A program made the position numbers and the translations under genes. 64,000 bases of DNA. It comes from Actinomycetes bacterium (GTDB taxonomy: Bacteria; Actinomycetota; Acidimicrobiia; Acidimicrobiales; Ilumatobacteraceae). Below the pieces are notes generated by a model. The model made no database searches. It was not told where the DNA came from and saw only the letters and a program-made list of their open reading frames with translations. Shown piece after piece: positions 35,093 through 46,721 of this stretch (its first letter is position 1; every line of letters starts with the position of its first letter). The DNA is taken from assembly GCA_029782355.1 (NCBI GenBank), contig JAKOUY010000016.1:372001-436000 (forward strand). Direction: 5' to 3'.

Positions 35093-36155
35093 GGCGGATC
35101 CGCTCGGCAACGGCCGCTTCGGCGGCGAAGTCCCAGGTCGACTTCCACACCGGATCGGCCAGGGGCTGGTCGAGGCGGTCCCATCCCTGCTCGCGGAACC
35201 AGTGGTAGGTGTGCTCGTGGCCGGCGCGCAGGTCGTAGCGCGGCCGGACGCCCAGCAACTGCTCGGCCTTGGTCGTGCTCAACGCAGCGTGGTGGCGGAC
35301 CTTGAACAGATGCCCGTACACGGGTGCGCTCCCCGGGAGGTCGAGCTCGGCGACGATGTCGTGCGGGACCCGCACGACATCGGCCGCGGCGCCGACCACC
35401 TCGGCCAGGGTGGCCACATAGCGGTTGACGTCGCACGCATCGGTGGTGGCGTTGATGATCTGCCCGGCGGCGCCCGGATGGCGGGCGGCCCGGATCATGG
35501 TCTCGCACAGGTCGTCGACATGACCGTACGACCCCACCACCAGGCCGTCGTGGGGAACCAGGACGGGCAACCCCCGGAGCAGCCGCAGGAACATCGGCGT
35601 CTCCATGTCGTAGATGTTGTTGTGCGGCCCGTAGATGGCGGCCGGCCGCACCGAGCAACCGGGGAACCCCGTGTCGGCGTGGCGTTGCAGGATCGACCGC
35701 TCGGCCAGGGCCTTGAACCCGCCGTAGCTGGCCGCCCCATCGGGGTTCAGCGGTTGATCCTCGGTCCACGGGAAGACACCGGCCCAGGACTGGTCGTAGG
35801 CCATGATCGAGCTGACGAACACGTAGCCACCGGCGTGCCCGTCGAGCAGGCCGAGCAGCAGGTCGATGTCCGATCCGCCGGCGGCCATCACGAAGCCGGA
35901 CACGTCGAGGACCAGATCCCAGTCCCGGCCGGCCAGGGCGGCGCGCAGCTGAGCGGCCTCGGTGCGATCGGCGGTGATCCGCCGGACGCCGGCGGGCAGG
36001 TCGGCGACCGTCCGGCCCCGGTTCAGCACGGACACCTCGGCGCCCCGCTGGTGGAGCACCTCGACCACCCGCCGGCCGACGAACACGCTGCCACCGAGCA
36101 CCAACGCACGCCGGCCGGCCAGATCGTGCGCCGCCGCCGGCTCCACCGGGTTCAC
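35085..36155 (-). CDS. NAD-dependent epimerase/dehydratase
   Basis: 356 residues from a GTG that overlaps the upstream stop by four bases. Extended-SDR features: ALVLGGSVFVGRRVV (cofactor loop GGxxFxG), VFVSSIMAYD, SVRPAAIYGPHN, and a C-terminal substrate domain. The catalytic YxxxK appears as SYGGFKA. The family converts nucleotide-sugars or reduces keto groups on sugar-like or terpenoid substrates. Neighbouring TIM-barrel isomerase and kinase suggest a polyol or sugar-like substrate. Confidence 0.83.
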   Translation of the reverse strand: MNPVEPAAAHDLAGRRALVLGGSVFVGRRVVEVLHQRGAEVSVLNRGRTVADLPAGVRRITADRTEAAQLRAALAGRDWDLVLDVSGFVMAAGGSDIDLLLGLLDGHAGGYVFVSSIMAYDQSWAGVFPWTEDQPLNPDGAASYGGFKALAERSILQRHADTGFPGCSVRPAAIYGPHNNIYDMETPMFLRLLRGLPVLVPHDGLVVGSYGHVDDLCETMIRAARHPGAAGQIINATTDACDVNRYVATLAEVVGAAADVVRVPHDIVAELDLPGSAPVYGHLFKVRHHAALSTTKAEQLLGVRPRYDLRAGHEHTYHWFREQGWDRLDQPLADPVWKSTWDFAAEAAVAERIRRG

Positions 36156-37033
36156 GATGTGGCAGCCGCCAGCACGGCGCGCATGCCGTCCGCCGAGCGC
36201 TGCGCGGCCTGGTCGATCGGTCCGGCCCACAGCGCTGGGTTGCACACCTCGATCGAGATGGGAGCCGTCACCCCCATCTCCATCAGCAGGCGGACGAAGC
36301 CGACGCAGTCGAACTGGCCCTCGCCCGGCGGAACGCGGCCGGCCAGGCAGTCGGCCTTGTAGTCCAGTCCGGGGTCCGGGTCTCGCGGTCCGTCGTTCAT
36401 CTGCACGCTGAAGACCCGCTCGGGTTCGAGGGCGCGGATCTGGTCGAGGTCGTTGGCGCCGCGGGTGTGGTGCCAGATGTCGGCGCAGTACCCGAGGTTG
36501 GGACGGTCAACTGCCTGCACCACCCGTTGGGCGGTCGCCGCATCGGGGATGTTCGTGTAGGGCAACCACTCGATGCCCACCAGCAGACCGTGCGCCGCGC
36601 AGCGGTCGGCTACCCCGCCGAGCTGGTCGTAGGCCGATGCCAGGTCGAACCCCGTGCCACCGATCAGCTGGAGGTAGCGCGACCCGAAGTGGTCGGCCAT
36701 CTCGAAGATCCAGTCCTCCTGGCGGGCGTAGGCCGCACGGCCGTCGTCGTCGGTGGCCCACCAGCCGCGGGCCACCTCGATCTCGGCGATCGTGGTGCCG
36801 TGGCGGTCGAGGACCTCGGCGATCTGCGCTGCGCTGCGTCCCTCCTCCTGGCGCAGCCGGGCGTACTCCTCGTGGAACAGTCCGATGCCGGCGTATCCGG
36901 CGGCAGCCGCCGCGGCGACGCGCTCGTCGAACAGGCCGTAGCGCGGCCGGCTGAAGTGGGCCCAGACCAGGTCGGGCCAGGCCATGGCGTGGGCGTCGGT
37001 CGCCGTCAGCCGGCTGATGGGCGGATCGGTCAT
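36152..37033 (-). CDS. Sugar-phosphate isomerase/epimerase-like TIM-barrel protein
   Basis: 293 residues. Xylose-isomerase-like fold: YGLFDERVAAAAAAGYAGIG, YLQLIGGTGF, LVGIEWLPYTN (metal Glu), LGYCADIWHHTRG (metal Asp/His), and ISIEVCNP (metal Glu). These Glu/Asp/His positions fit the divalent-metal site of the family. Reactions include epimerisation and dehydratase-like chemistry on sugars or 3-dehydro-acids. Start and stop overlap the genes on both sides by four bases, so it is translated with them. Confidence 0.83.
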   Translation of the reverse strand: MTDPPISRLTATDAHAMAWPDLVWAHFSRPRYGLFDERVAAAAAAGYAGIGLFHEEYARLRQEEGRSAAQIAEVLDRHGTTIAEIEVARGWWATDDDGRAAYARQEDWIFEMADHFGSRYLQLIGGTGFDLASAYDQLGGVADRCAAHGLLVGIEWLPYTNIPDAATAQRVVQAVDRPNLGYCADIWHHTRGANDLDQIRALEPERVFSVQMNDGPRDPDPGLDYKADCLAGRVPPGEGQFDCVGFVRLLMEMGVTAPISIEVCNPALWAGPIDQAAQRSADGMRAVLAAATS

Positions 37034-37239
37034 GGGTGGTTGACGACGATCCGGTGATGGGCGACCTTCGGTCCGCCGACCCAGTTGCACAGCTGCGGGT
37101 CGGCCTCGAACAGCTCGCCGTCGACCCATTCCCCACCGGGGGTAAACGTCCCGACGCGGTCGCCGGCCGTGACCCGGACGTTGCCGTGCCCGTCCTGCTC
37201 GTACAGCGCCCGGCTGAACGGGTGGCGGATGCCGAGCAT
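37030..37239 (-). CDS. Tiny Rieske-associated protein (69 aa), unnamed family
   Basis: 69 residues from the ATG at 37239, which shares one base with the stop of the Rieske gene; its own stop overlaps the next ATG by four bases. It has no signal peptide, membrane segment or metal motif. Its sequence aligns along nearly its whole length with the 77-residue product at 43930-44163: HPFSRALYE/HPLSGAVYD, RVGTFTPGGEWVDGEL/RVGRFDSQGRWLSGEL and DPQLCNWVGGP/DPQLCGWLAGP. Both are embedded next to Rieske oxygenase genes, so it is a real gene and probably an accessory factor or substrate-loop regulator of the oxygenase. No known family was recognised. Confidence 0.75.
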   Translation of the reverse strand: MLGIRHPFSRALYEQDGHGNVRVTAGDRVGTFTPGGEWVDGELFEADPQLCNWVGGPKVAHHRIVVNHP

Positions 37240-38588
37240 CAGCCCTCCACCCACCGGCCGAGCAGGTCGTGCAACCAGCGGACCTTGGACTCCTGGTAGT
37301 TGGCCAGCGTCACGCCGGGCTTGGTCATCGTCTCCAGGCCGCGCTGGACGCGGGGCATGTTGAAGGCATCCTGCTGGAACACCTTGGCCAGCATGCCCAG
37401 CTCGGGCGCATCGGTCCAGTCGTCGTCCGGGCCGAGGTAGGTGGTGGCCGCCGGGGCCGGCCGCGGGCCGCTGAACGGGGCCAGCAGGAAGACCTCCATG
37501 ATGCAGGTGCGGTGGTCGTCTCCGTTGGGGCGGAAGCGGTAGCAGATCCGGTTGTACGCCCCCCACGGATGCAGGTTGGGGAACAGCGTGTAGTCGATGT
37601 TGTCGATGAACTCGGCGTCGCTCCACTGGTCGACCCGGTCGCCCACCACCGGCCGCCAGCGCTCGCGAGCCGCCGCCGCGGACACCGCCCGGGCCGACTG
37701 GTCGCCGGCTGTGAAGAAGTTCTCCTCGTCGACGCGGATGTCCAGCATGTAGCGGAGGATCTCGTCCTCGCTCGGGGTCCAGCCGAGCAGCGGGCTGGCC
37801 GTCCCGCCAGGGGTGATCACCCGGGCGACCGTGTCCCAGATGTCGACCTGGCTGTTGACGTCGCCGAGGTACGGGAGTGCCTGGGGGTGCGTGCCGCCGA
37901 CGTGGTACGACTCGCAGAAGGCCTCCTGGGCGACCTTCCAGTTGCAGCGGATCACCTTGTGCACGTGGGCCTGGATGTAGCGGTCCTCCAGGGCCCAGCG
38001 CTCGAAGTGCCGGGGCAGCTCGCCGAGATGCTGCTCGAGCGGTTCGGCGTCGGGGTCCATGTTGACGAACACCCAGCCACCCCACGTGCCCACACGGACC
38101 TCGGGCAGGGCGAAGGCGGCATCGTCGACGTGGGGGAAGTCCCACCGAGCGGGTACGTCCTGGAGCTCGCCCTGCAGCGACCAGGCGAAGCCGTGGTACG
38201 GGCAGCGGATGATCGAGCACCGTCCGCCGTGGTCCTTCAGTGCCCGGCCGCGATGCAGGCAGGCGTTGTAGAAGGCCCGGATCCGGCCGTCGTCGCCGCG
38301 CATGATCACCAGCGAGACGTTGGCGATCTCGTACAGCACGTGACATCCCGGGTCGGGGATCTGCTCCTCGCGGCACGCGGCCTGCCAGACCCGCTTCCAC
38401 AACCGCTCGACCTCGCGCTCGTGCCACTGCCGGGAGATGTACCGCTCGATCGGCACATCGGCGCTACCGAGGTACTTCGGGGCCACCTCGCGCAGCGACT
38501 CGGGCACCGGGAACGGGTCGGTGTCGAGGAGCTGTTGGTAGGTCACGCCGGCTGAGCGCGCCGCGCCAGGTTCCTGGCGATCGTTCAT
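37239..38588 (-). CDS. Rieske non-heme iron oxygenase, alpha subunit (2)
   Basis: 449 residues. Rieske ligands C110/H112 (NACLHRG) and C129/H132 (CPYHGFAW); mononuclear iron ligands H229 and H234 (CESYHVGGTH). Longer than enzyme 1, and close in layout to enzyme 3 at 42509-43933, with which it shares KRVWQ-ACREE, HPWG-YNRI-YRFRP and a C-terminal NYQESKVRWLH/RYQESKIRCLH. ATG at 38588 is preferred to a GTG six bases upstream because GGGGG lies about seven bases before it. Third gene of the leftward operon starting at 39620; no reductase is encoded in it. Confidence 0.9.
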   Translation of the reverse strand: MNDRQEPGAARSAGVTYQQLLDTDPFPVPESLREVAPKYLGSADVPIERYISRQWHEREVERLWKRVWQAACREEQIPDPGCHVLYEIANVSLVIMRGDDGRIRAFYNACLHRGRALKDHGGRCSIIRCPYHGFAWSLQGELQDVPARWDFPHVDDAAFALPEVRVGTWGGWVFVNMDPDAEPLEQHLGELPRHFERWALEDRYIQAHVHKVIRCNWKVAQEAFCESYHVGGTHPQALPYLGDVNSQVDIWDTVARVITPGGTASPLLGWTPSEDEILRYMLDIRVDEENFFTAGDQSARAVSAAAARERWRPVVGDRVDQWSDAEFIDNIDYTLFPNLHPWGAYNRICYRFRPNGDDHRTCIMEVFLLAPFSGPRPAPAATTYLGPDDDWTDAPELGMLAKVFQQDAFNMPRVQRGLETMTKPGVTLANYQESKVRWLHDLLGRWVEG

Positions 38589-38652
38589 GTCCACCCCCGT
38601 TTCTTGACAGCGACTCTAGCTGGCAGGTCCTGGGGTGTCAGTTGGTCGGGCC

Positions 38653-39201
38653 TCAACCGAGGAGTCGGACCGGATTGCTCCCGTCCCAGCCGACGGCGGC
38701 ATCGGCCACCTGGCGATAGAAGGCGACCAGGCGCGGCGCAGCCGGATAGAGCTCGACGAAGTGGCCGAGCCGGTCGACCGCGTCGACGAAGCGGAACGGC
38801 AGCCCGCCGCTGGTCTCCGCCGACATCGCCTCGGTCATGCCCTGGGCGGCCAGCGACTCGACCGTGGCTGCCAGCCCGCCTGGGCCGTCGCCCTCGTCGA
38901 CGAGCCATGCCAGATGGTGGAGGCGGCTGGCGCCCGGCGGCACGAGCTCACTGATCACGTTCGGGTCGGGGCCGTGATCCTCCACCAGCTCGACCATGAT
39001 CGCTCCCCACTGACCGTAGGCCGACGTGTGGTCGAAGCTCGACGGTCGGCCGCGGTAGACCACGGTGCGCAGTTCGATGTGCGCCCGAACGAAGAACGGA
39101 CCGGCGCCGAACCGTTGCGCCCAGTGCTTCGCGGCGTCGACGGCGTCGGGCACGGCATAGGCGATCTGCACCGGCGCCCCGAGCACCGCCTCGCCGATCA
39201 T
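38653..39201 (-). CDS. VOC-superfamily (glyoxalase/dioxygenase-like) protein
   Basis: 182 residues. A bleomycin-resistance/glyoxalase-type fold is indicated by VQIAYAVPDAVDAAKHWAQRFGAGP, LHHLAWLVDEGDGPGGL and RFVDAVDRLGHFVELYP; the His residues and the C-terminal Glu are candidate metal ligands. The paired beta-alpha-beta modules fit one VOC unit. Members isomerise, cleave or dioxygenate small substrates, including methylmalonyl-CoA epimerases. Start overlaps the SnoaL stop by four bases; 64 bp separate it from the Rieske gene. Confidence 0.8.
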   Translation of the reverse strand: MIGEAVLGAPVQIAYAVPDAVDAAKHWAQRFGAGPFFVRAHIELRTVVYRGRPSSFDHTSAYGQWGAIMVELVEDHGPDPNVISELVPPGASRLHHLAWLVDEGDGPGGLAATVESLAAQGMTEAMSAETSGGLPFRFVDAVDRLGHFVELYPAAPRLVAFYRQVADAAVGWDGSNPVRLLG

Positions 39202-39620
39202 CCGATGCCGAGGGACTTGGCCCGGGCGCTCTTGTCGTGGAAGTCGGCCTCGAAGCACACCAGTGGGCCGGCGAAGCGCAGGTACGACATGCACGGGACC
39301 GACCATCGCCGCCCGACGTACTCGGCGCCGTAGGTCTCGGGCAGGAGGACCTCGCCGCTCATCACGTAGTGCACGGCCAGTCCGCCGTCGTTGGCCCAGA
39401 ACTCGGTGGGGTCGAGACGCAGGTTGGCGGTACGGCTCATGCCGCGGGCGAAGAAGGCCCGGATGGCCGGCCACCCCTCGAAGCGGCCACTGGCCACGTC
39501 GTCCAGGACCGCGTCGGGGGTGAAGAGGCACTGCGGAGCATCGGCGTCGCCGCTGCTCCACGCGGCGAAGACCTGCCGGGCGACCTCGATTCGCGGGTCA
39601 TCATTGGACGCGTTGAACAT
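39198..39620 (-). CDS. SnoaL/NTF2-like protein (2), first gene of the leftward operon
   Basis: 140 residues. SnoaL pattern: ARQVFAAWSSGDADAPQCLFTPDAVLDDV, GWPAIRAFFARG, LAVHYVMSGEVLLPE split over the sheet. TATAAT ends six bases before the ATG, with no ribosome-binding site, so the transcript should be leaderless. The product may be a cyclase/isomerase-like enzyme or a beta-type partner of the Rieske alpha subunit two genes downstream. Confidence 0.83.
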   Translation of the reverse strand: MFNASNDDPRIEVARQVFAAWSSGDADAPQCLFTPDAVLDDVASGRFEGWPAIRAFFARGMSRTANLRLDPTEFWANDGGLAVHYVMSGEVLLPETYGAEYVGRRWSVPCMSYLRFAGPLVCFEADFHDKSARAKSLGIG

Positions 39621-39626
39621 GTAGTC

Positions 39627-39632
39627 ATTATA
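39627..39632 (-). promoter_or_regulatory. Consensus -10 box TATAAT of the nine-gene leftward operon
   Basis: On the minus strand TATAAT is followed by GACTAC and then ATG at 39620, placing the expected transcription start on the A of the start codon. No good -35 hexamer is visible 16-18 bp upstream, so an activator or an extended -10 may be needed. The divergent SnoaL gene begins 58 bp away. Confidence 0.65.
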
Positions 39633-39677
39633 GAGAAAGTGTTTGCACCGGTCGGCCGGCATGGCACGCTGGTGAGC

Positions 39678-40112
39678 ATGTCCGACCGCGACGACATCAT
39701 CGACGTGGCGATCGCCTACACCTGGGCGCTCGACACCAAACGACTCGACGATCTGGCGCAGGTGTTCACCGCCGACGCCACCGGCATGCTGCACGGCGTG
39801 GCCTGCGACGGCCTGCCGGCCATCGTCGAGCGCATCGGCGGGGCGATCCTGCGCCTCGACGCCACCCAGCACCTGGTGGGCAACCACCAGGTGCGCGTCG
39901 ATGGTGACACGGCGACCCACCGGTGCCAGCTGGCCAGCCAGCACGTCAAGGCCGGGACGCCGGGCGGCGACACCTACGTGGTCGGCGGCTACTACGACGA
40001 CCGCCTGGTGCGGACCGCCGACGGGTGGCGGATCACCCACCGGACGATGCAGCAGACGTGGGCCGATGGCAACCGCGAGGTCGTCAAGCGTCCCGCCGGC
40101 GGTGCGTCGTGA
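39678..40112 (+). CDS. SnoaL/NTF2-like protein (3)
   Basis: 144 residues. IIDVAIAYTWALDTKRLDDLAQVFTADATGM (helix plus first strand, here split), HLVGNHQVRVDGDTATHRCQ, and YYDDRLVRTADGWRITHRTMQQTW give a SnoaL_4 protein. The ATG at 39678 is chosen; a GTG six bases upstream is possible. It overlaps the reductase gene by four bases and diverges from SnoaL (2), so two paralogous folds flank one small intergenic region. Confidence 0.83.
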   Translation: MSDRDDIIDVAIAYTWALDTKRLDDLAQVFTADATGMLHGVACDGLPAIVERIGGAILRLDATQHLVGNHQVRVDGDTATHRCQLASQHVKAGTPGGDTYVVGGYYDDRLVRTADGWRITHRTMQQTWADGNREVVKRPAGGAS

Positions 40113-41140
40113 ACCCGACCAGCACGCGCATGGTGGTGCTGCTGGCCCGCCCCGGCGCAGGCGGTCCGCAGCCCGAGGACTTCGCCATCGAGGAGCGCCC
40201 GCTGCCGGCCCTCGGCCCCGGCCAGCTGCTCGTCCACAACACCCTGATGAGCGTGGACCCGTCGATGCGTGGCCGGCTGGAGACCGGCGAGAAGCACTAC
40301 ACGACCAACTTCGAGATCGGTGCACCGCTCGACGGCTCGGCCATCGGGCGCGTCCTGGCCAGCACCGCCGACGGCATCGCCGAGGGCAGCTACGTCCGCC
40401 ACCGGATGGGTTGGCGGGAGCACGCCGTGGTCGACGCCGCCGGCGTCTCGGTGGTCGACCAGCAGGCCGCTCCGCTGGGTGCCTGGCTGGGCATCCTCGG
40501 CCAGACCGGCTTCACCGCCTGGGTGGGCGTCAAGCGGATCGGCGCGCTGCAGCCCGGCGAGCAGGTCTTCGTGTCCGGGGCGGCGGGCGCCGTGGGCTCG
40601 GCGGCCGGTCGGTTCGCCAAGCTGCTCGGTGCCTCGCGGGTCGTGGGCAGCGCCGGCGGTCCGGCGAAGACGGCTGCGCTGGTCGACTCGCTGGGGTTCG
40701 ACGACGCCTTCGACTACCGCACCGCCGAGCCCCGCCGGGTGCTGCGCGAGCTGTTCCCCGACGGCATCGACGTCTACTTCGACAACGTCGGCGGCCCGCA
40801 GTTGGTCGGCGCGCTGAAGAACATGGCCATCAACGGGCGGATCGCCCTGTGCGGGATGATCAGCCAGTTCAGCGACGACGGCCGCGGCCAGGACATCAAC
40901 AACCTGATCGAGGCCGTGCTGCGACGGGTCACGGTGCGCGGCTTCATCGTCCGCGATCACGAGGACATGCGCCCCGAGTTCGAGCAGACCGTGTCGGCCT
41001 GGCTGCGTGACGGCGAGGTCACTGCCCTGCAGACGGTGGTCGACGGCCTCAACCATGCCGTCGACGGGTTCCTCAGCATGCTGCAAGGTGGCAACACCGG
41101 CAAGGCGTTGATCCGCCTGGACACCACCGTGCCCGTCTGA
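40109..41140 (+). CDS. Zinc-independent MDR NADP-dependent oxidoreductase (PTGR/leukotriene-B4-dehydrogenase type)
   Basis: 343 residues from a GTG overlapping the SnoaL stop. Features: N-terminal LVHNTLMSVDPSMRGRL, nucleotide-binding VFVSGAAGAVGSAAGRFAKLLG (AxxGxxG), DVYFDNVGG, and ALCGMISQFSDDG. No structural or catalytic zinc cysteines are present. The family reduces enone double bonds with NADPH. Its neighbours suggest a role in reducing an unsaturated ketone derived from the oxygenase pathway. Confidence 0.88.
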   Translation: MNPTSTRMVVLLARPGAGGPQPEDFAIEERPLPALGPGQLLVHNTLMSVDPSMRGRLETGEKHYTTNFEIGAPLDGSAIGRVLASTADGIAEGSYVRHRMGWREHAVVDAAGVSVVDQQAAPLGAWLGILGQTGFTAWVGVKRIGALQPGEQVFVSGAAGAVGSAAGRFAKLLGASRVVGSAGGPAKTAALVDSLGFDDAFDYRTAEPRRVLRELFPDGIDVYFDNVGGPQLVGALKNMAINGRIALCGMISQFSDDGRGQDINNLIEAVLRRVTVRGFIVRDHEDMRPEFEQTVSAWLRDGEVTALQTVVDGLNHAVDGFLSMLQGGNTGKALIRLDTTVPV

Positions 41141-41175
41141 CGTCGGGGACGGAGCGGACGACTGAATCGGCGGCG

Positions 41176-41805
41176 TTACGAGCCGACGATGCGCTCGGCG
41201 ATACCGCCGACCTCGTCGGTGTAGCGCCGGGCGCCGAGGCTGCGGTACGTGGCGTCCTGGTTCAGCATGGTGGCCAGCGCCGTCTCCAGGAGCGACGTCA
41301 ACGCCACCGCGGCCACCCCGGCCTCGGCACTCGTGTACGCCGGCCGGGCGCTGCGCACGGCGGTGCGCAGTGCCTCGACCAGCCCGACGCGGGTCTCCCG
41401 GCGCAGGGCCTCGACCACCAGGTTCAGCCCGAGGCTGTTGACGAAGTACACGGTCGCCGGGACGCGCTGCTTGGTGGTCCACGACATCAGGTTGGCCACC
41501 AGGGTGTGGATCGTGCCGCCGTCGGCGACGGCGGCGAGCTGCTCGCGCAGGTAGCCGAGCAGGCCATCACGGAACTGCTCGAGGCCCTCCAACAGGATCT
41601 GCTCCTTGGAGGCGAAGTGGTAGTAGACCGCGGCCGAGGTCATCTCCACCGCCGAGGCGATGTCCTGGACGGTGACCTCCTCCACCGGCATGGTGGCGAA
41701 CAGGCCCATCGCCCCGTCGATGACCGCCTGGCGCCGCGACGGGCGATGCGCCGGGCGCCGAGATACCGCGGCTCCGTTGATGGCATCTACAGTAGGACAC
41801 GGCAC
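41176..41805 (-). CDS. TetR-family transcriptional regulator (1)
   Basis: 209 residues from the GTG at 41805; the start is uncertain because the next upstream and downstream in-frame start codons are poor. The helix-turn-helix lies about 30-75 (VTVQDIASAVEMTSAAVYYHFASKEQIL). The C-terminal ligand domain is helical. The open frame runs much further upstream antisense to the second regulator, which is not believed. It diverges from TetR (2) with about 40 bp between starts, so the two promoters and operators share the same DNA. Confidence 0.82.
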   Translation of the reverse strand: MPCPTVDAINGAAVSRRPAHRPSRRQAVIDGAMGLFATMPVEEVTVQDIASAVEMTSAAVYYHFASKEQILLEGLEQFRDGLLGYLREQLAAVADGGTIHTLVANLMSWTTKQRVPATVYFVNSLGLNLVVEALRRETRVGLVEALRTAVRSARPAYTSAEAGVAAVALTSLLETALATMLNQDATYRSLGARRYTDEVGGIAERIVGS

Positions 41806-41844
41806 GGGCCGCCCCCCGCAGCCGCTCGACGAACGAACCGCTCG

Positions 41845-42465
41845 ATGGCCTCGACCACCACGACTCCCGCGCACCGACCCTCGCGCCGGTCCGACATCAT
41901 CGAGGCGGCCGTGCGCCAGTTCGCCCGCAAGGGCTTCGTCGATGCCGGCATCGCCGACGTGGCCAACGACGCCGACGTCGTCGCCACCGCCGTCTACTAC
42001 CACTTCTCCGGCAAGGAGGAGTTGTTCACCGCCGCAGTGCAGTACGTGTTCGAGTCGATCACCGCCGTGGTCTCGGCCGTTCGCGACGTGGGCACGGCGA
42101 GCGACATCGACACCCTCGACCGGGCCATCGACGCGGTCTGGCAGTGGATCGACGATCACCCCGACGAGGCCACGCTGATTCACCTGCAACTGCCCGGCGC
42201 AACCCCCCAGATCACCACGCTGCGCCAGGAGTTCGAGGCCCTCCACGTCCAGCGGGCCTTCGGGTACCTCAGTCCGACCACCACGCGGGCCCGGCCGTCG
42301 GCGGCGCGCCGCGCCGTGGAGACCCTGTCGGTGCGCACGCTGGTCGACCTGCTCATCGCCGTGCACACCATGCGCCTGGCGGACGGGCCGCTCAGCCGGG
42401 AGAAGAGCGGCAAGCTGCGCGCCGCGGTGCACGACCTGTCCCGCCGGCTGGTGGCGATCGACTGA
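41845..42465 (+). CDS. TetR-family transcriptional regulator (2)
   Basis: 206 residues. N-terminal helix-turn-helix RSDIIEAAVRQFARKGFVDAG through VVATAVYYHFSGKEELF (about 14-60). The C-terminal domain contains WQWIDDHPDEATLIHLQ and LSVRTLVDLLIAVHTM. Divergent with TetR (1) and convergent with the Rieske gene at 42509. Likely controls itself, its divergent neighbour, or the oxygenase operons on either side; no operator palindrome was recognised with confidence. Confidence 0.86.
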   Translation: MASTTTTPAHRPSRRSDIIEAAVRQFARKGFVDAGIADVANDADVVATAVYYHFSGKEELFTAAVQYVFESITAVVSAVRDVGTASDIDTLDRAIDAVWQWIDDHPDEATLIHLQLPGATPQITTLRQEFEALHVQRAFGYLSPTTTRARPSAARRAVETLSVRTLVDLLIAVHTMRLADGPLSREKSGKLRAAVHDLSRRLVAID

Positions 42466-42508
42466 ACGACGCGCCGGCCAGCCACGTCCGGCCGCGCCCG
42501 CCGCTCGC

Positions 42509-43933
42509 TCAGTCGCGGGTGATCCAGCGCTCCAGTTCGGCGTGCAGGCAGCGGATCTTACTCTCCTGGTAGCGGGCGAAGACGACCTCGTCGATGGCGC
42601 CGGACTCCAAGCCCTCCTGGACGCGCGGCAGGTTGTAGACGTCCTGGTTGAACACCCGGGTCAGCAGGCCCAGCTCCCAAGCCTCGGTCCAATCGTCGTC
42701 GACCCCGAGCATCTTCAGCGGTGCCGCCGGTGGGCGCGGGCCGCGGAACGGGCTGAGGATCATGCACTCCATCACGCACCGGTCGTGACGGTTGCCGTCC
42801 GGGCGGAAGCGGTAGACGATGCGGTTGTAGCTGCCCCACGGATGGAAGTTGGGGAACACCGCGTAGACCATGCTGTCGTTGACCTCGGCGTCCGACAGGC
42901 TGTTGGCCCGGTCCTCACCGAGGACGTGGACCAGGCCGGCGCGTCGGTGGTCGGCCAGTGCCTGGCGACCGGACACCCCCTCGGGCACCACGAACGTCGG
43001 ATCCTGGTCGAGCGCCCGGTCGAAGTGCACGTCGACCATCTGCTGGTCGGTCGGCTCCCAGCGCAGGTGGGTGCTCGGCAGCCCGTTCGGCGTGATCGCC
43101 CGGGCGAAGTGGCCGAAGGCGTCGTACTGGGTGATCGTGTCGCCCATGCCCGGGAGCAGCTGCGGGTGGGTGGCGACGACGTGGTACGACTCCATGAAGG
43201 CTTCCTGAGCCAGCTTCCAGTTGCAGCGCAGGACCTTGCCGACGTGGACCTGCTTGAAGCGCTCCTCCAGCGGCCATTCGGTGAAGTGCGCCGGCAGGTC
43301 GCCGAGGAACTCGGCCAGCGGTCCAGCGGCGGGGTCGAGGTTGATGAAGACGAACCCACCCCAGGTGTCCGCCTGGACGGGCGGGAGGTCGAAGTCGTCC
43401 TCGTCGACCTGCGGGAAGTCCCAGCTGCACGGGATCTGCTTCAGGCCACCGTCGAGGTTCCAGGCGATGCCATGGAACGGGCAACGCAGCTCCTCGGCCC
43501 GGCCCGGATACTCCTTCAACATCCGGCCACGGTGGCGGCAGATGTTGCGGAAGGCGCGCACGGTGTCGGGCGCGGTGCGCACCACCAGCACCGAGATCCC
43601 GGCGATGTCGTAGGGCAGGTGGTCGCCGACTTCGGGAATGTCTTCCTCCCGGCAGGCCATCTGCCACACCCGCTTCCACACCTTGTCGACCTCCACGCGG
43701 TGGAACTCGGGCGAGGTGTACCGCTCCACCGGCACGCGCAGCTGGCCGTCACCCATCGGTGACTGCCAGCGGTAGACGTCCGGGGTCGGGCGAGAGTCCT
43801 GGTCCAGCAGGGCCTGGTACAGGGCGCCCTCGGTGGCGGCGCCGAGCGAGGTGCAGTCGAGCGAGGCGGAGCGGACGCGGACAGGCGCCTCGGGCGCCAC
43901 CGGCGAACCGGATGCGTCAGGGATGGCGTTCAC
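42509..43933 (-). CDS. Rieske non-heme iron oxygenase, alpha subunit (3)
   Basis: 474 residues from a GTG overlapping the stop of the tiny upstream gene by four bases. Rieske ligands C132/H134 (NICRHRG) and C151/H154 (CPFHGIAW); mononuclear iron ligands H251 and H256 (MESYHVVATH). It is a paralogue of enzyme 2 across its full length. As with enzyme 2, a tiny conserved protein is co-encoded, but upstream instead of downstream. No reductase or ferredoxin neighbour. Confidence 0.9.
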   Translation of the reverse strand: MNAIPDASGSPVAPEAPVRVRSASLDCTSLGAATEGALYQALLDQDSRPTPDVYRWQSPMGDGQLRVPVERYTSPEFHRVEVDKVWKRVWQMACREEDIPEVGDHLPYDIAGISVLVVRTAPDTVRAFRNICRHRGRMLKEYPGRAEELRCPFHGIAWNLDGGLKQIPCSWDFPQVDEDDFDLPPVQADTWGGFVFINLDPAAGPLAEFLGDLPAHFTEWPLEERFKQVHVGKVLRCNWKLAQEAFMESYHVVATHPQLLPGMGDTITQYDAFGHFARAITPNGLPSTHLRWEPTDQQMVDVHFDRALDQDPTFVVPEGVSGRQALADHRRAGLVHVLGEDRANSLSDAEVNDSMVYAVFPNFHPWGSYNRIVYRFRPDGNRHDRCVMECMILSPFRGPRPPAAPLKMLGVDDDWTEAWELGLLTRVFNQDVYNLPRVQEGLESGAIDEVVFARYQESKIRCLHAELERWITRD

Positions 43934-44163
43934 TGCGGCACCGGCCCGGGTTGGAAGTCCTTCGGGTTGCCGGGCACGCCGGCGGGCAGTTGCGGGCCGG
44001 CCAGCCAGCCGCACAACTGCGGGTCGCAGCTGCGCAGCTCGCCGGACAGCCACCGTCCCTGCGAGTCGAACCGCCCGACCCGACCGTGGAGGTTGACCTC
44101 GATCAGGTTGTCGGCGAGCACGTCGTAGACGGCCCCGCTCAGTGGATGCACACGCGCTCGCAT
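43930..44163 (-). CDS. Tiny Rieske-associated protein (77 aa), paralogue of the one at 37030
   Basis: 77 residues. GGGAGGA sits six bases before the ATG at 44163, so this is a well-initiated gene. It aligns with the 69-residue product at 37030-37239 over HPxSxAxY, GRVGxFxxxGxWxxGEL and DPQLCxWxxGP; the C-terminal about 20 residues (proline-rich, LPAGVPGNPKDFQPGP) differ. The stop overlaps the Rieske start, so the two are coupled in translation. Conservation of the DPQLC motif and of the Rieske neighbourhood in two separate operons argues for a physical or functional link to the oxygenase. Confidence 0.78.
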   Translation of the reverse strand: MRARVHPLSGAVYDVLADNLIEVNLHGRVGRFDSQGRWLSGELRSCDPQLCGWLAGPQLPAGVPGNPKDFQPGPVPQ

Positions 44164-44256: not shown

Positions 44257-45090
44257 TCAGCTGGGAACCGGCCGAGCCCGCTGTGTCGCCCAGGCGCGGG
44301 CCTGCTCGCCGGACACCCACAAGCAGGCATTGGTGAGCAGTCGGCGGAACACCGGGTGGCCCAGGGTCGACGGCCCGTGACCTGGCAGCAGGTAGACGAT
44401 CGGGCTCGCCCCGGCAGCGCTGGCCCAACCGACCAGCGAGGACCCTGGCCCGGCACCGGCCGGGCCGACCCGCCCGTGGCGGACCTCGCCGTAGGTGTCG
44501 ATCATCTCGTGCGCATCGATCGAGGCATCGGTGCCCAACAGGGCCAGCACGTCGTCGTCGAAGACCGCGCAGCGGTACAGCTCGTCCTCGACGGTGAACG
44601 CCTCGATCCCGGCGCACACCGGATGGTCGGACGCCAACACCTCCACCCGGTACGTGGCCATGCGGTATCCGGATGCCGACGTCGGCACGCCGCGGACCGT
44701 GCCGGGGGCGTAGAGGAACCGGCCGCCGAGTGCCTCGGCCCACCCATCCCACGCCGGCCACCCGGCCAGGGCGTGATGCAGGGCGACGATGCCGCGCCCG
44801 GCGCGCAGGAGTGCGCCGAGCACCCGGCGGGCTTCGGCGTCCGGCCCAACCGGCGTCGGCTCTGCGCCGCGTCGGAGGTCGAGGCCGGGAAGGTCGTACA
44901 GCAGCACCGCCCCCTGCCACGCAGGCCGTTCGGTCCGGGCGGCCAGTGCGCCGATGGCGTCCGGGTGGGCCATCCGGACCACCGACCACCCGAGGCGGCC
45001 GGCGATGTCGTCGGTCATCGCCGCCACGGCCTCGTGGTCGACCCGGTGCCCGCCCGTGATCACCACCAGCTCACCCGGCCCCGAACTCAC
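44257..45090 (-). CDS. ThuA-like domain protein (2)
   Basis: 277 residues from a GTG. The class-I-amidotransferase-like fold is suggested by LVVITGGHRVDHEAV at the N terminus, LLRAGRGIVALHHALAGWPAWDGW at the elbow (split), and ASPIVYLLPGHGPSTLGHPVFRRLLTNACLWVSG (split) at the C terminus, the LGH and late W being family features. It has HHALAGW where the first ThuA-like protein has LHGTST. It is transcribed towards the small-protein/Rieske pair with a 93-bp gap. Role unknown; glycoside or sugar-like substrate handling is the family association. Confidence 0.75.
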   Translation of the reverse strand: MSSGPGELVVITGGHRVDHEAVAAMTDDIAGRLGWSVVRMAHPDAIGALAARTERPAWQGAVLLYDLPGLDLRRGAEPTPVGPDAEARRVLGALLRAGRGIVALHHALAGWPAWDGWAEALGGRFLYAPGTVRGVPTSASGYRMATYRVEVLASDHPVCAGIEAFTVEDELYRCAVFDDDVLALLGTDASIDAHEMIDTYGEVRHGRVGPAGAGPGSSLVGWASAAGASPIVYLLPGHGPSTLGHPVFRRLLTNACLWVSGEQARAWATQRARPVPS

Positions 45091-45136: not shown

Positions 45137-45403
45137 GTTCCGAGCCCATGGGCGCGGGATCGTGCGTCAGCGGGAGTTTCCGCGCCCATGGGTCTGGGGG
45201 TGATCAGGTGGTGGGGTGTCGTGCGGGGGTGGGTGGTTCCGCGCCCATGGGAGTGGGGTGGAGCGTCAGCGGGAGTTTCCGCGCCCATGGGTCTGGGGGT
45301 GGTCAGGTGGTGGGGTGTCGTGCCGGGGTGGGTGGTTCCGAGCCCATGGGTGTGGGGTGGTGCGTCAGCGGGAGTTTCCGCGCCCATGGGTCTGGGGGTG
45401 GTC
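45137..45403. repeat. Tandem repeat, 99-bp period, 2.7 copies
   Basis: Copies start at 45137, 45236 and 45335; the last stops matching near 45403. Each copy contains two related sub-units that begin TTCCGCGCCCATGGG or TTCCGAGCCCATGGG, at alternating distances of 40 and 59 bp (starts 45138, 45178, 45237, 45277, 45336, 45376). CCCATGGG is itself palindromic. Copies differ by only a few bases, so the expansion is recent. The repeat fills the 336-bp gap between the ThuA-like gene and the next Rieske gene. Because the period is divisible by three, long false reading frames cross it on both strands. Confidence 0.9.
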
Positions 45404-45426: not shown

Positions 45427-46683
45427 TCAGGGCGTGTCGGGGGAGGGAGGGGCCATGAACTCGGTGGGGTCCTCGACCCAGGCGGCGAGGAGGTCGGGGA
45501 CGCGGAGGGGTTCGGGGATTCGCTCGGGGCCGATGACTCGGTCGATCCAGGCGTGGACGTGCCAGATCCGCCGCTCCTGGTAGTTGAGCACCTGTCCGCC
45601 GTGGGCGGCGTGCTCCATCGAGCGCTGGATGGGACCCAGGTTGCGGTAATCCTCCTCCATCAGCACGGCGAAGCGGTCCAGCCGACGTCGCCAGACGTCG
45701 GCTCCGGGAAGGTCGCCATCGCCCCAGTCGGCGGCGAACCAGATGATGTCCAGCCGGGTGCGATCGATCCCCACCGGCCACCACACCAGGAACGGGAAGC
45801 CACGGGCGTCGAGCGGGGTGATGATGTTCGGGAAGACGCCGTGCGCCGGTTGGATGGGCTCGGCCATCAACGCCGGCAGGTGGGCGAGCGTCGCCAGCGA
45901 CTCCCGCCCGTCGCCGCGCGTTCCCGGCTTCACCGGGGACAGCATGTTCTGATGGCCGTGATCGAACAGCGAGATCACCGTGCCCCGGGTGTCGAGCGTC
46001 GGCGCCACCGTGGTGGGGTGGATCGTCCGGGCGTGGTACACCTCCAAGAACCCCTCGGCCAGGATCTTCCAGTTGCACGGCAGCTCGACCGACGTCCGGT
46101 CCAGCACCCGCAGCGGCGACCGGGCGACGTCGGCCAACAGCGCCGGCAACGGCGCCAGCCAGTCCAGCAGCGGCATGGCCTGCGGGTCGAGGTTGACGAA
46201 CCACCAGCCTCCCCAACGCTCGCAGCGCACGGCGGGCAGGGCGCGAGCGTCCGGGCGCAACCCGACGAAGTCGCGCTGATCGGGCACCCGCTGCAGTCGG
46301 CCGCACAGGTCGTAGGTCCACGAGTGGTACTGGCACACCAGGGCGCGGGCCTGCCCGCAGGGCTCACGCACCACCGGTGCGCCCCGATGGCGGCAGGCGT
46401 TGAGCATGGCACGGACCTCGCCGTCGTCGCCCCGGACCATCAGGACCGGGGCTCCGGCGATGTCGCACAGGCGGTAGGCGCCGGCGCCGACCAGCTCCGA
46501 GTCGTGACAGGCGTACAGCCACGAGCGGCCGAACAACCGGGTGCGCTCGAGCTCGAAGAACTCGGGATCGGTGTACCGGCCGAGCGGCAGATCGGGCAGG
46601 TCCGGAAACCCCTCCGGTGGTCCGGTGCGCGCCGACTCCCAGGCCGAGCGCTCACGGAACCGGGCGAGATACTTGAGATCCAT
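45427..46683 (-). CDS. Rieske non-heme iron oxygenase, alpha subunit (4)
   Basis: 418 residues. Rieske ligands C97/H99 (NACRHRG) and C117/H120 in the variant CQYHSWTYD; mononuclear iron ligands H217 and H222 (LEVYHARTIH). The sequence around the second Rieske loop differs from the CPYHGW consensus of the other enzymes, resembling carnitine/choline-type monooxygenases and phenylpropionate-like groups. ATG at 46683 selected for the MDLKYLARF start. Divergent from the KstD-like flavoprotein, 38 bp apart, suggesting a shared control region. Confidence 0.88.
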   Translation of the reverse strand: MDLKYLARFRERSAWESARTGPPEGFPDLPDLPLGRYTDPEFFELERTRLFGRSWLYACHDSELVGAGAYRLCDIAGAPVLMVRGDDGEVRAMLNACRHRGAPVVREPCGQARALVCQYHSWTYDLCGRLQRVPDQRDFVGLRPDARALPAVRCERWGGWWFVNLDPQAMPLLDWLAPLPALLADVARSPLRVLDRTSVELPCNWKILAEGFLEVYHARTIHPTTVAPTLDTRGTVISLFDHGHQNMLSPVKPGTRGDGRESLATLAHLPALMAEPIQPAHGVFPNIITPLDARGFPFLVWWPVGIDRTRLDIIWFAADWGDGDLPGADVWRRRLDRFAVLMEEDYRNLGPIQRSMEHAAHGGQVLNYQERRIWHVHAWIDRVIGPERIPEPLRVPDLLAAWVEDPTEFMAPPSPDTP

Positions 46684-46721
46684 TGCACCTCCGGCTGCCA
46701 CGGTACTGGCACACTCTGACC

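Follow-up and report, generated by a model that had tools for sequence, protein, structure and literature searches.

The window, a 64,000-nucleotide stretch of a 3.8-Mb actinobacterial genome from the family Ilumatobacteraceae, encodes two tiny proteins alongside Rieske oxygenases, a class of iron enzymes acting on molecules that are hard to degrade (Table 1). A first-pass annotation of the DNA had described two small open reading frames that share three motifs, each overlapping one of two paralogous Rieske genes, once downstream and once upstream. Both open reading frames are real, and both lie on the minus strand: the 69-aa product reads MLGIRHPFSRALYEQDG...DRVGTFTPGGEWVDGELFEADPQLCNWVGGPK... 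and the 77-aa product MRARVHPLSGAVYDV...GRVGRFDSQGRWLSGELRSCDPQLCGWLAGPQ..., while the plus strand at the same coordinates holds unrelated letters. The two proteins do share the three motifs, and BLASTP aligns them over 54 aa at 43% identity (E = 1e-15, single comparison). The described overlaps are likewise present and measure 1 and 4 bp. The start of the 69-aa gene sits inside the stop codon of its Rieske gene (TGATG), and at its end it overlaps the following gene as ATGA; the 77-aa gene in turn overlaps, as GTGA at its end, the start of its own Rieske gene.

Table 1 Features of the window discussed in the text.
Feature	Position	Strand	Remarks
AP_endonuc_2-type sugar-phosphate isomerase	36152..37033	-	ATGA overlap with end of 69-aa gene
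Small partner, D type (downstream)	37030..37239	-	69 aa; overlaps with both adjoining genes
Rieske oxygenase α subunit, D clade	37239..38594	-	Partner of 69-aa protein; Pfam PF00355 + PF00848
Rieske oxygenase α subunit, U clade	42509..43933	-	Partner of 77-aa protein; PF00355 + PF00848
Small partner, U type (upstream)	43930..44163	-	77 aa; GTGA overlap with Rieske start
ThuA-domain gene	44257..45090	-
Tandem repeat of a 99-bp unit	45137..45403		2.7 copies, 93% matches
Third Rieske α subunit, other subfamily	45427..46701	-	Without small partner; context and outgroup

The large partners are Rieske non-heme iron oxygenase α subunits by their domains and motifs, with the fold taken from a fused homolog (L037). 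Both proteins score above the Pfam cut-off for the two domains, and the Rieske CxH/CxxH and HxxxxH...D motifs are intact in the partner of the 69-aa protein. The two are paralogs, 50% identical over 441 aa. Among the other genes of the region, the isomerase is found near 5 of 42 loci that have the small gene downstream of the Rieske gene, and the stretch that separates the ThuA gene from the third Rieske gene contains the tandem repeat.

Identity and distribution of the small proteins

Pfam and NCBIfam contain no family for either small protein up to E = 1. The best match in PHROGs is a PHROG of unknown function (E = 0.06), which does not reach the curated cut-off, and a profile of 23 members searched against all PDB sequences finds no relative, with only enolase-like chance matches (E 0.2). 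The open literature, which includes few subscription journals, yielded no paper on a small accessory protein, an inserted domain, or a ThuA neighbor of Rieske oxygenases. The first-pass annotation knew of no named family with these motifs, and that statement is borne out by the lack of a usable match in Pfam, NCBIfam, PHROGs, and the PDB sequences. On sequence grounds, the small proteins are members of an unnamed, undescribed family of domains of about 60–85 aa. A phage or mobile origin of the small genes was considered and rejected, there being no relative on a viral contig.

The classical Rieske β subunit is a SnoaL/NTF2-like protein of about 160–190 aa. The β subunits of α3β3 Rieske oxygenases resemble the present family in being small, non-catalytic, and co-encoded with α, but the family members measure 60–85 aa and lack a sequence match to solved structures. 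Similarity to SnoaL/NTF2-like β subunits is absent from both Pfam and the PDB sequences for the 69- and 77-aa proteins, and by its sequence the small protein is not a β subunit.

Profile searches for homologs elsewhere, as the first-pass annotation had proposed, find them to be numerous in Acidimicrobiia and sporadic in other groups. Matches at E ≤ 0.01 occur in 30 of 100 relative genomes, a few of them chance matches near the limit. A small-domain match is present in 57 of 397 genomes of the order and in 5 of 396 genomes spread over the phylum, all five of which belong to the window's own family. Used as the query against 84,980 species genomes, the small domain gives 196 confirmed places, 80 of which were kept. 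These loci are mostly from Acidimicrobiia (Ilumatobacteraceae, Microthrix, Acidimicrobiales), together with single metagenome-assembled genomes labeled Binatia, Pseudomonadales, Proteobacteria, Acidobacteria, and Spirochaeta, although faulty binning may account for some of these labels. Five Rhodococcus plasmids also carry the small gene, which directly follows the Rieske gene in all three that were inspected and is labeled “hypothetical protein” where annotated. A divergent 94-aa member from Rhodococcus sp. USK13 (L208:5374-5658) matches the profile only from position 12 and keeps GRFTPNG and DPELCIW.

H6, G36, G41, D47, and W53 are at or near 100% in distinct homologs. C51 is kept in 81–100% of members depending on class and is replaced in about one fifth of those encoded upstream of their Rieske gene. 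The median dN/dS over 126 close pairs of small genes is 0.15, and the small genes are under purifying selection; together with the conserved residues, this sets the family apart from a chance resemblance.

Reciprocal linkage to one group of Rieske oxygenases

All linkage searches used the small domain alone, so the neighboring gene was not selected for. In each of the 80 kept loci of the species-genome scan, a same-strand Rieske gene lies within about 150 bp or the domain lies inside a Rieske reading frame. Over all loci, 143 distinct domains comprise 70 downstream of the Rieske gene (D), 48 upstream (U), 23 inside (INS), and two without a Rieske gene; six loci first scored as U were reassigned to D, five of them having a visible high-scoring Rieske partner upstream and the sixth, L199, which is cut by a contig end, being placed by its D-type sequence. 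The first-pass annotation had named homologs lying mostly away from Rieske genes as an outcome that would refute its proposal; instead, 141 of the 143 distinct members adjoin or lie inside a Rieske gene. Of the two exceptions, one (L187) has its start 114 bp from the point where the contig ends. The other (L044:4231-4545, minus strand) is an in-frame scar in which the start of an enoyl-CoA hydratase gene runs directly into the small gene's second half; because the related loci L186 and L188 have the order hydratase, Rieske, small gene, the Rieske gene at L044 has been lost by deletion. The overlap seen for the 77-aa gene is common in its class, with 36 of 48 U genes overlapping the Rieske start as NTGA. 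At one locus (L123:188-3103), two D-like Rieske genes stand in tandem with one small gene between them, which is possibly common to both enzymes.

The association also holds in the reverse direction. We searched 61 relative genomes with a profile of the partner's catalytic half. Every Rieske match above 390 bits (28/28) is paired with a small gene, either one from the search of the relatives or the window's own, and all three fused forms in the same genomes contain the domain. The small domain is absent from the surroundings (about 2 kb) of all 18 of the next-closest Rieske homologs examined (167–287 bits).

Eleven neighboring genes of the window were tested against 99 loci, and the Rieske genes alone are universal, other neighbors being rare. 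The next-best conserved neighbor, ThuA, accompanies 14 of 42 D loci, none of 34 U loci, and none of 23 INS loci. Hitch-hiking of the small gene in an operon was rejected, as no other neighbor is conserved enough at these loci. Since none is comparably conserved, the small gene tracks the enzyme and not the pathway. The linkage is obligatory and its specificity reciprocal; the evidence for a dedicated partner is strong, and very probably the small protein is an additional component that belongs specifically to the Rieske oxygenase. ThuA genes recur beside these Rieske genes (L052, L210, L211, L214), and in Novosphingobium a ThuA gene directly follows the Rieske gene with a 4-bp overlap at a place where the small gene is absent.

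Natural insertions and predicted structure

In 23 distinct enzymes, about 530–550 aa long where complete, the domain lies inside the catalytic domain of the Rieske α subunit, between the HxxxxH motif and a long helix. Between HxxxxH and the FPN strand, U and D enzymes have a spacing of about 101 residues, compared with 167 for INS enzymes and 99–115 for those homologs without a small gene that are cleanly measurable. A scenario in which the small protein is a lid replacing a missing loop was rejected, because the loop is equally long with and without the partner. No N- or C-terminal fusions were seen, the long open frames being either overlapping frames, as for the 69-aa gene, or internal insertions.

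In the fused enzyme L037, the iron-coordinating histidines are by motif His231 and His236, and the insert (residues 287–347) begins 51 residues after the second. Loop 2 of cumene dioxygenase (F278–G290) lies 38–50 residues after the iron-coordinating H240, and changes in this loop alter activity and selectivity (PMC7889853). Loops at the active-site entrance, including Asp229–Val238 of CARDO, act as dynamic gates (PMC12445004). By residue count, the insert would occupy the loop which in cumene and carbazole dioxygenases serves as the active-site gate, a placement made by counting rather than superposition among enzymes whose loop lengths vary. Sequence alignment of the catalytic domain to solved structures reaches only the HxxxxH motif.

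AlphaFold predictions were made for the small protein P0004 alone (67 sequences; mean pLDDT 76.5, a moderate value) and for the fused L037 enzyme (50 sequences; pLDDT 89.6, with 10-residue means of about 81–96 over the inserted domain). The lone and inserted models have the same order of elements, five strands in a β-meander and one helix (β5-α). Foldseek returns no significant match for the lone model (E 0.4 or worse), although the absence of a match does not establish that the fold is new. The model bears a weak geometric likeness to the β-meander folds of Polo-box and TCP10 proteins (VIA Z up to about 3.8), but with Z below 5 and an arrangement as common as the β-meander, kinship with the small protein is unsupported.

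The best structural match of fused L037 is the α3-type carnitine monooxygenase CntA (6ZGP, 6Y9C), with a Z of 33.8 and 2.8 Å over 329 residues. CntA has the same Rieske and His-His-Asp motifs as the partner enzymes, which also carry a glutamate three residues before the first iron-coordinating histidine (ESYH), as does CntA with its bridging Glu205 and His208 (PMC7948474). It differs in sequence, at about 21% identity, and its described composition is α3, with neither an extra domain nor a small partner. Phthalate dioxygenase (α3α3) likewise has extra structure within the catalytic domain, but this extension is part of α and stacks trimers, and the review that covers it describes no separately encoded homolog (PMC12445004).

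The INS enzymes form one clade in the Rieske tree (support 0.97), while next to the U enzymes the D enzymes make up what is essentially a single group. Homologs without the domain from sphingomonads, Nostoc, and Diaphorobacter branch outside. The number of gains is uncertain because a few divergent U members (L196–L200) fall outside the main clade. The history likely began with a separate gene, and insertion came afterwards. In the Rieske tree and the small-domain tree alike, the U and D arrangements form lineages that are old and distinct, in agreement with the earlier argument that the differing gene order speaks against a simple duplication of the whole block.

Possible roles of the small protein

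We consider it probable that the small protein is a constitutive extra subunit of one α3-type Rieske clade, docked at the gating loop and most likely serving as a lid or tunnel wall. We infer that it physically binds its enzyme with 1:1 stoichiometry and functions as a lid. Made in coupled translation with its α subunit, it would dock externally on the catalytic domain, where the loop that follows HxxxxH guards the active-site tunnel, and there its most likely job would be to shape substrate access, working as the lid loops of Rieske oxygenases do but in trans. A sister lineage has this domain built into the enzyme itself, inserted, by residue count, in that loop. Because the domain resides permanently inside the catalytic domain in the fusions, a subunit is likely and a transient maturation factor unlikely. 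The first-pass annotation had offered a maturation factor, a gate, or a small subunit as possible functions; the natural fusions favor the last two and disfavor the first.

A lid or tunnel wall is the most likely job given the position of the insert, with oligomer stacking as the main rival. A structural subunit that sets the oligomer, by stacking trimers to α6 or by contacts between neighboring α subunits and with no direct role at the active-site mouth, would fit the linkage and fusion data equally well. The loop region is exposed on the outside of the oligomer (PMC7889853), and in phthalate dioxygenase the trimers stack through an extended part of the catalytic domain (PMC12445004). We nevertheless regard such a role as rather unlikely, as residue counting places the insertion in a loop with a known role in gating substrate access, and close enzymes without the domain would need another solution. 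Tight translational coupling, together with the near-invariance of H6 and D47 and the retention of C51 noted above, would suit a chaperone or maturation factor that folds α or loads iron or [2Fe-2S] and then leaves, with H6, D47, and C51 as transient metal ligands. Such a factor would not require permanent residence in 23 distinct enzymes, however, and the pairing is confined to one clade, the domain being absent from close Rieske oxygenases of the same genomes; with C51 also replaced in part of the U class, we judge this explanation improbable. Least probable of all, and by our estimate only a slight chance, is an electron-transfer or docking subunit that recruits ferredoxin or reductase. These oxygenases do need a redox partner, and some Rieske β subunits aid partner contact (PMC12445004), but the small protein has no recognizable cofactor motif and the insertion is in the mononuclear-iron catalytic domain rather than in the Rieske domain.

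A 2025 review describes Rieske oxygenases only as α3, α3β3, α3α′3, or α3α3 (PMC12445004), and a partner of 70 aa would add a new architecture to them. There is perhaps an even chance that the small protein is a third kind of Rieske subunit (α3-γ3), a very small lid that acts in trans, makes up the active-site entrance, and has moved in evolution between upstream, downstream, and spliced-in arrangements. An enzyme of this clade expressed alone may be incomplete and poorly active, and the natural insertions would be ready single-chain versions. “Hypothetical protein” labels beside these genes, such as those on the Rhodococcus plasmids, could receive a name. The separate, downstream, and inserted forms would constitute a natural experiment on the control of selectivity by a lid acting in trans, which is now studied mainly through loop engineering.
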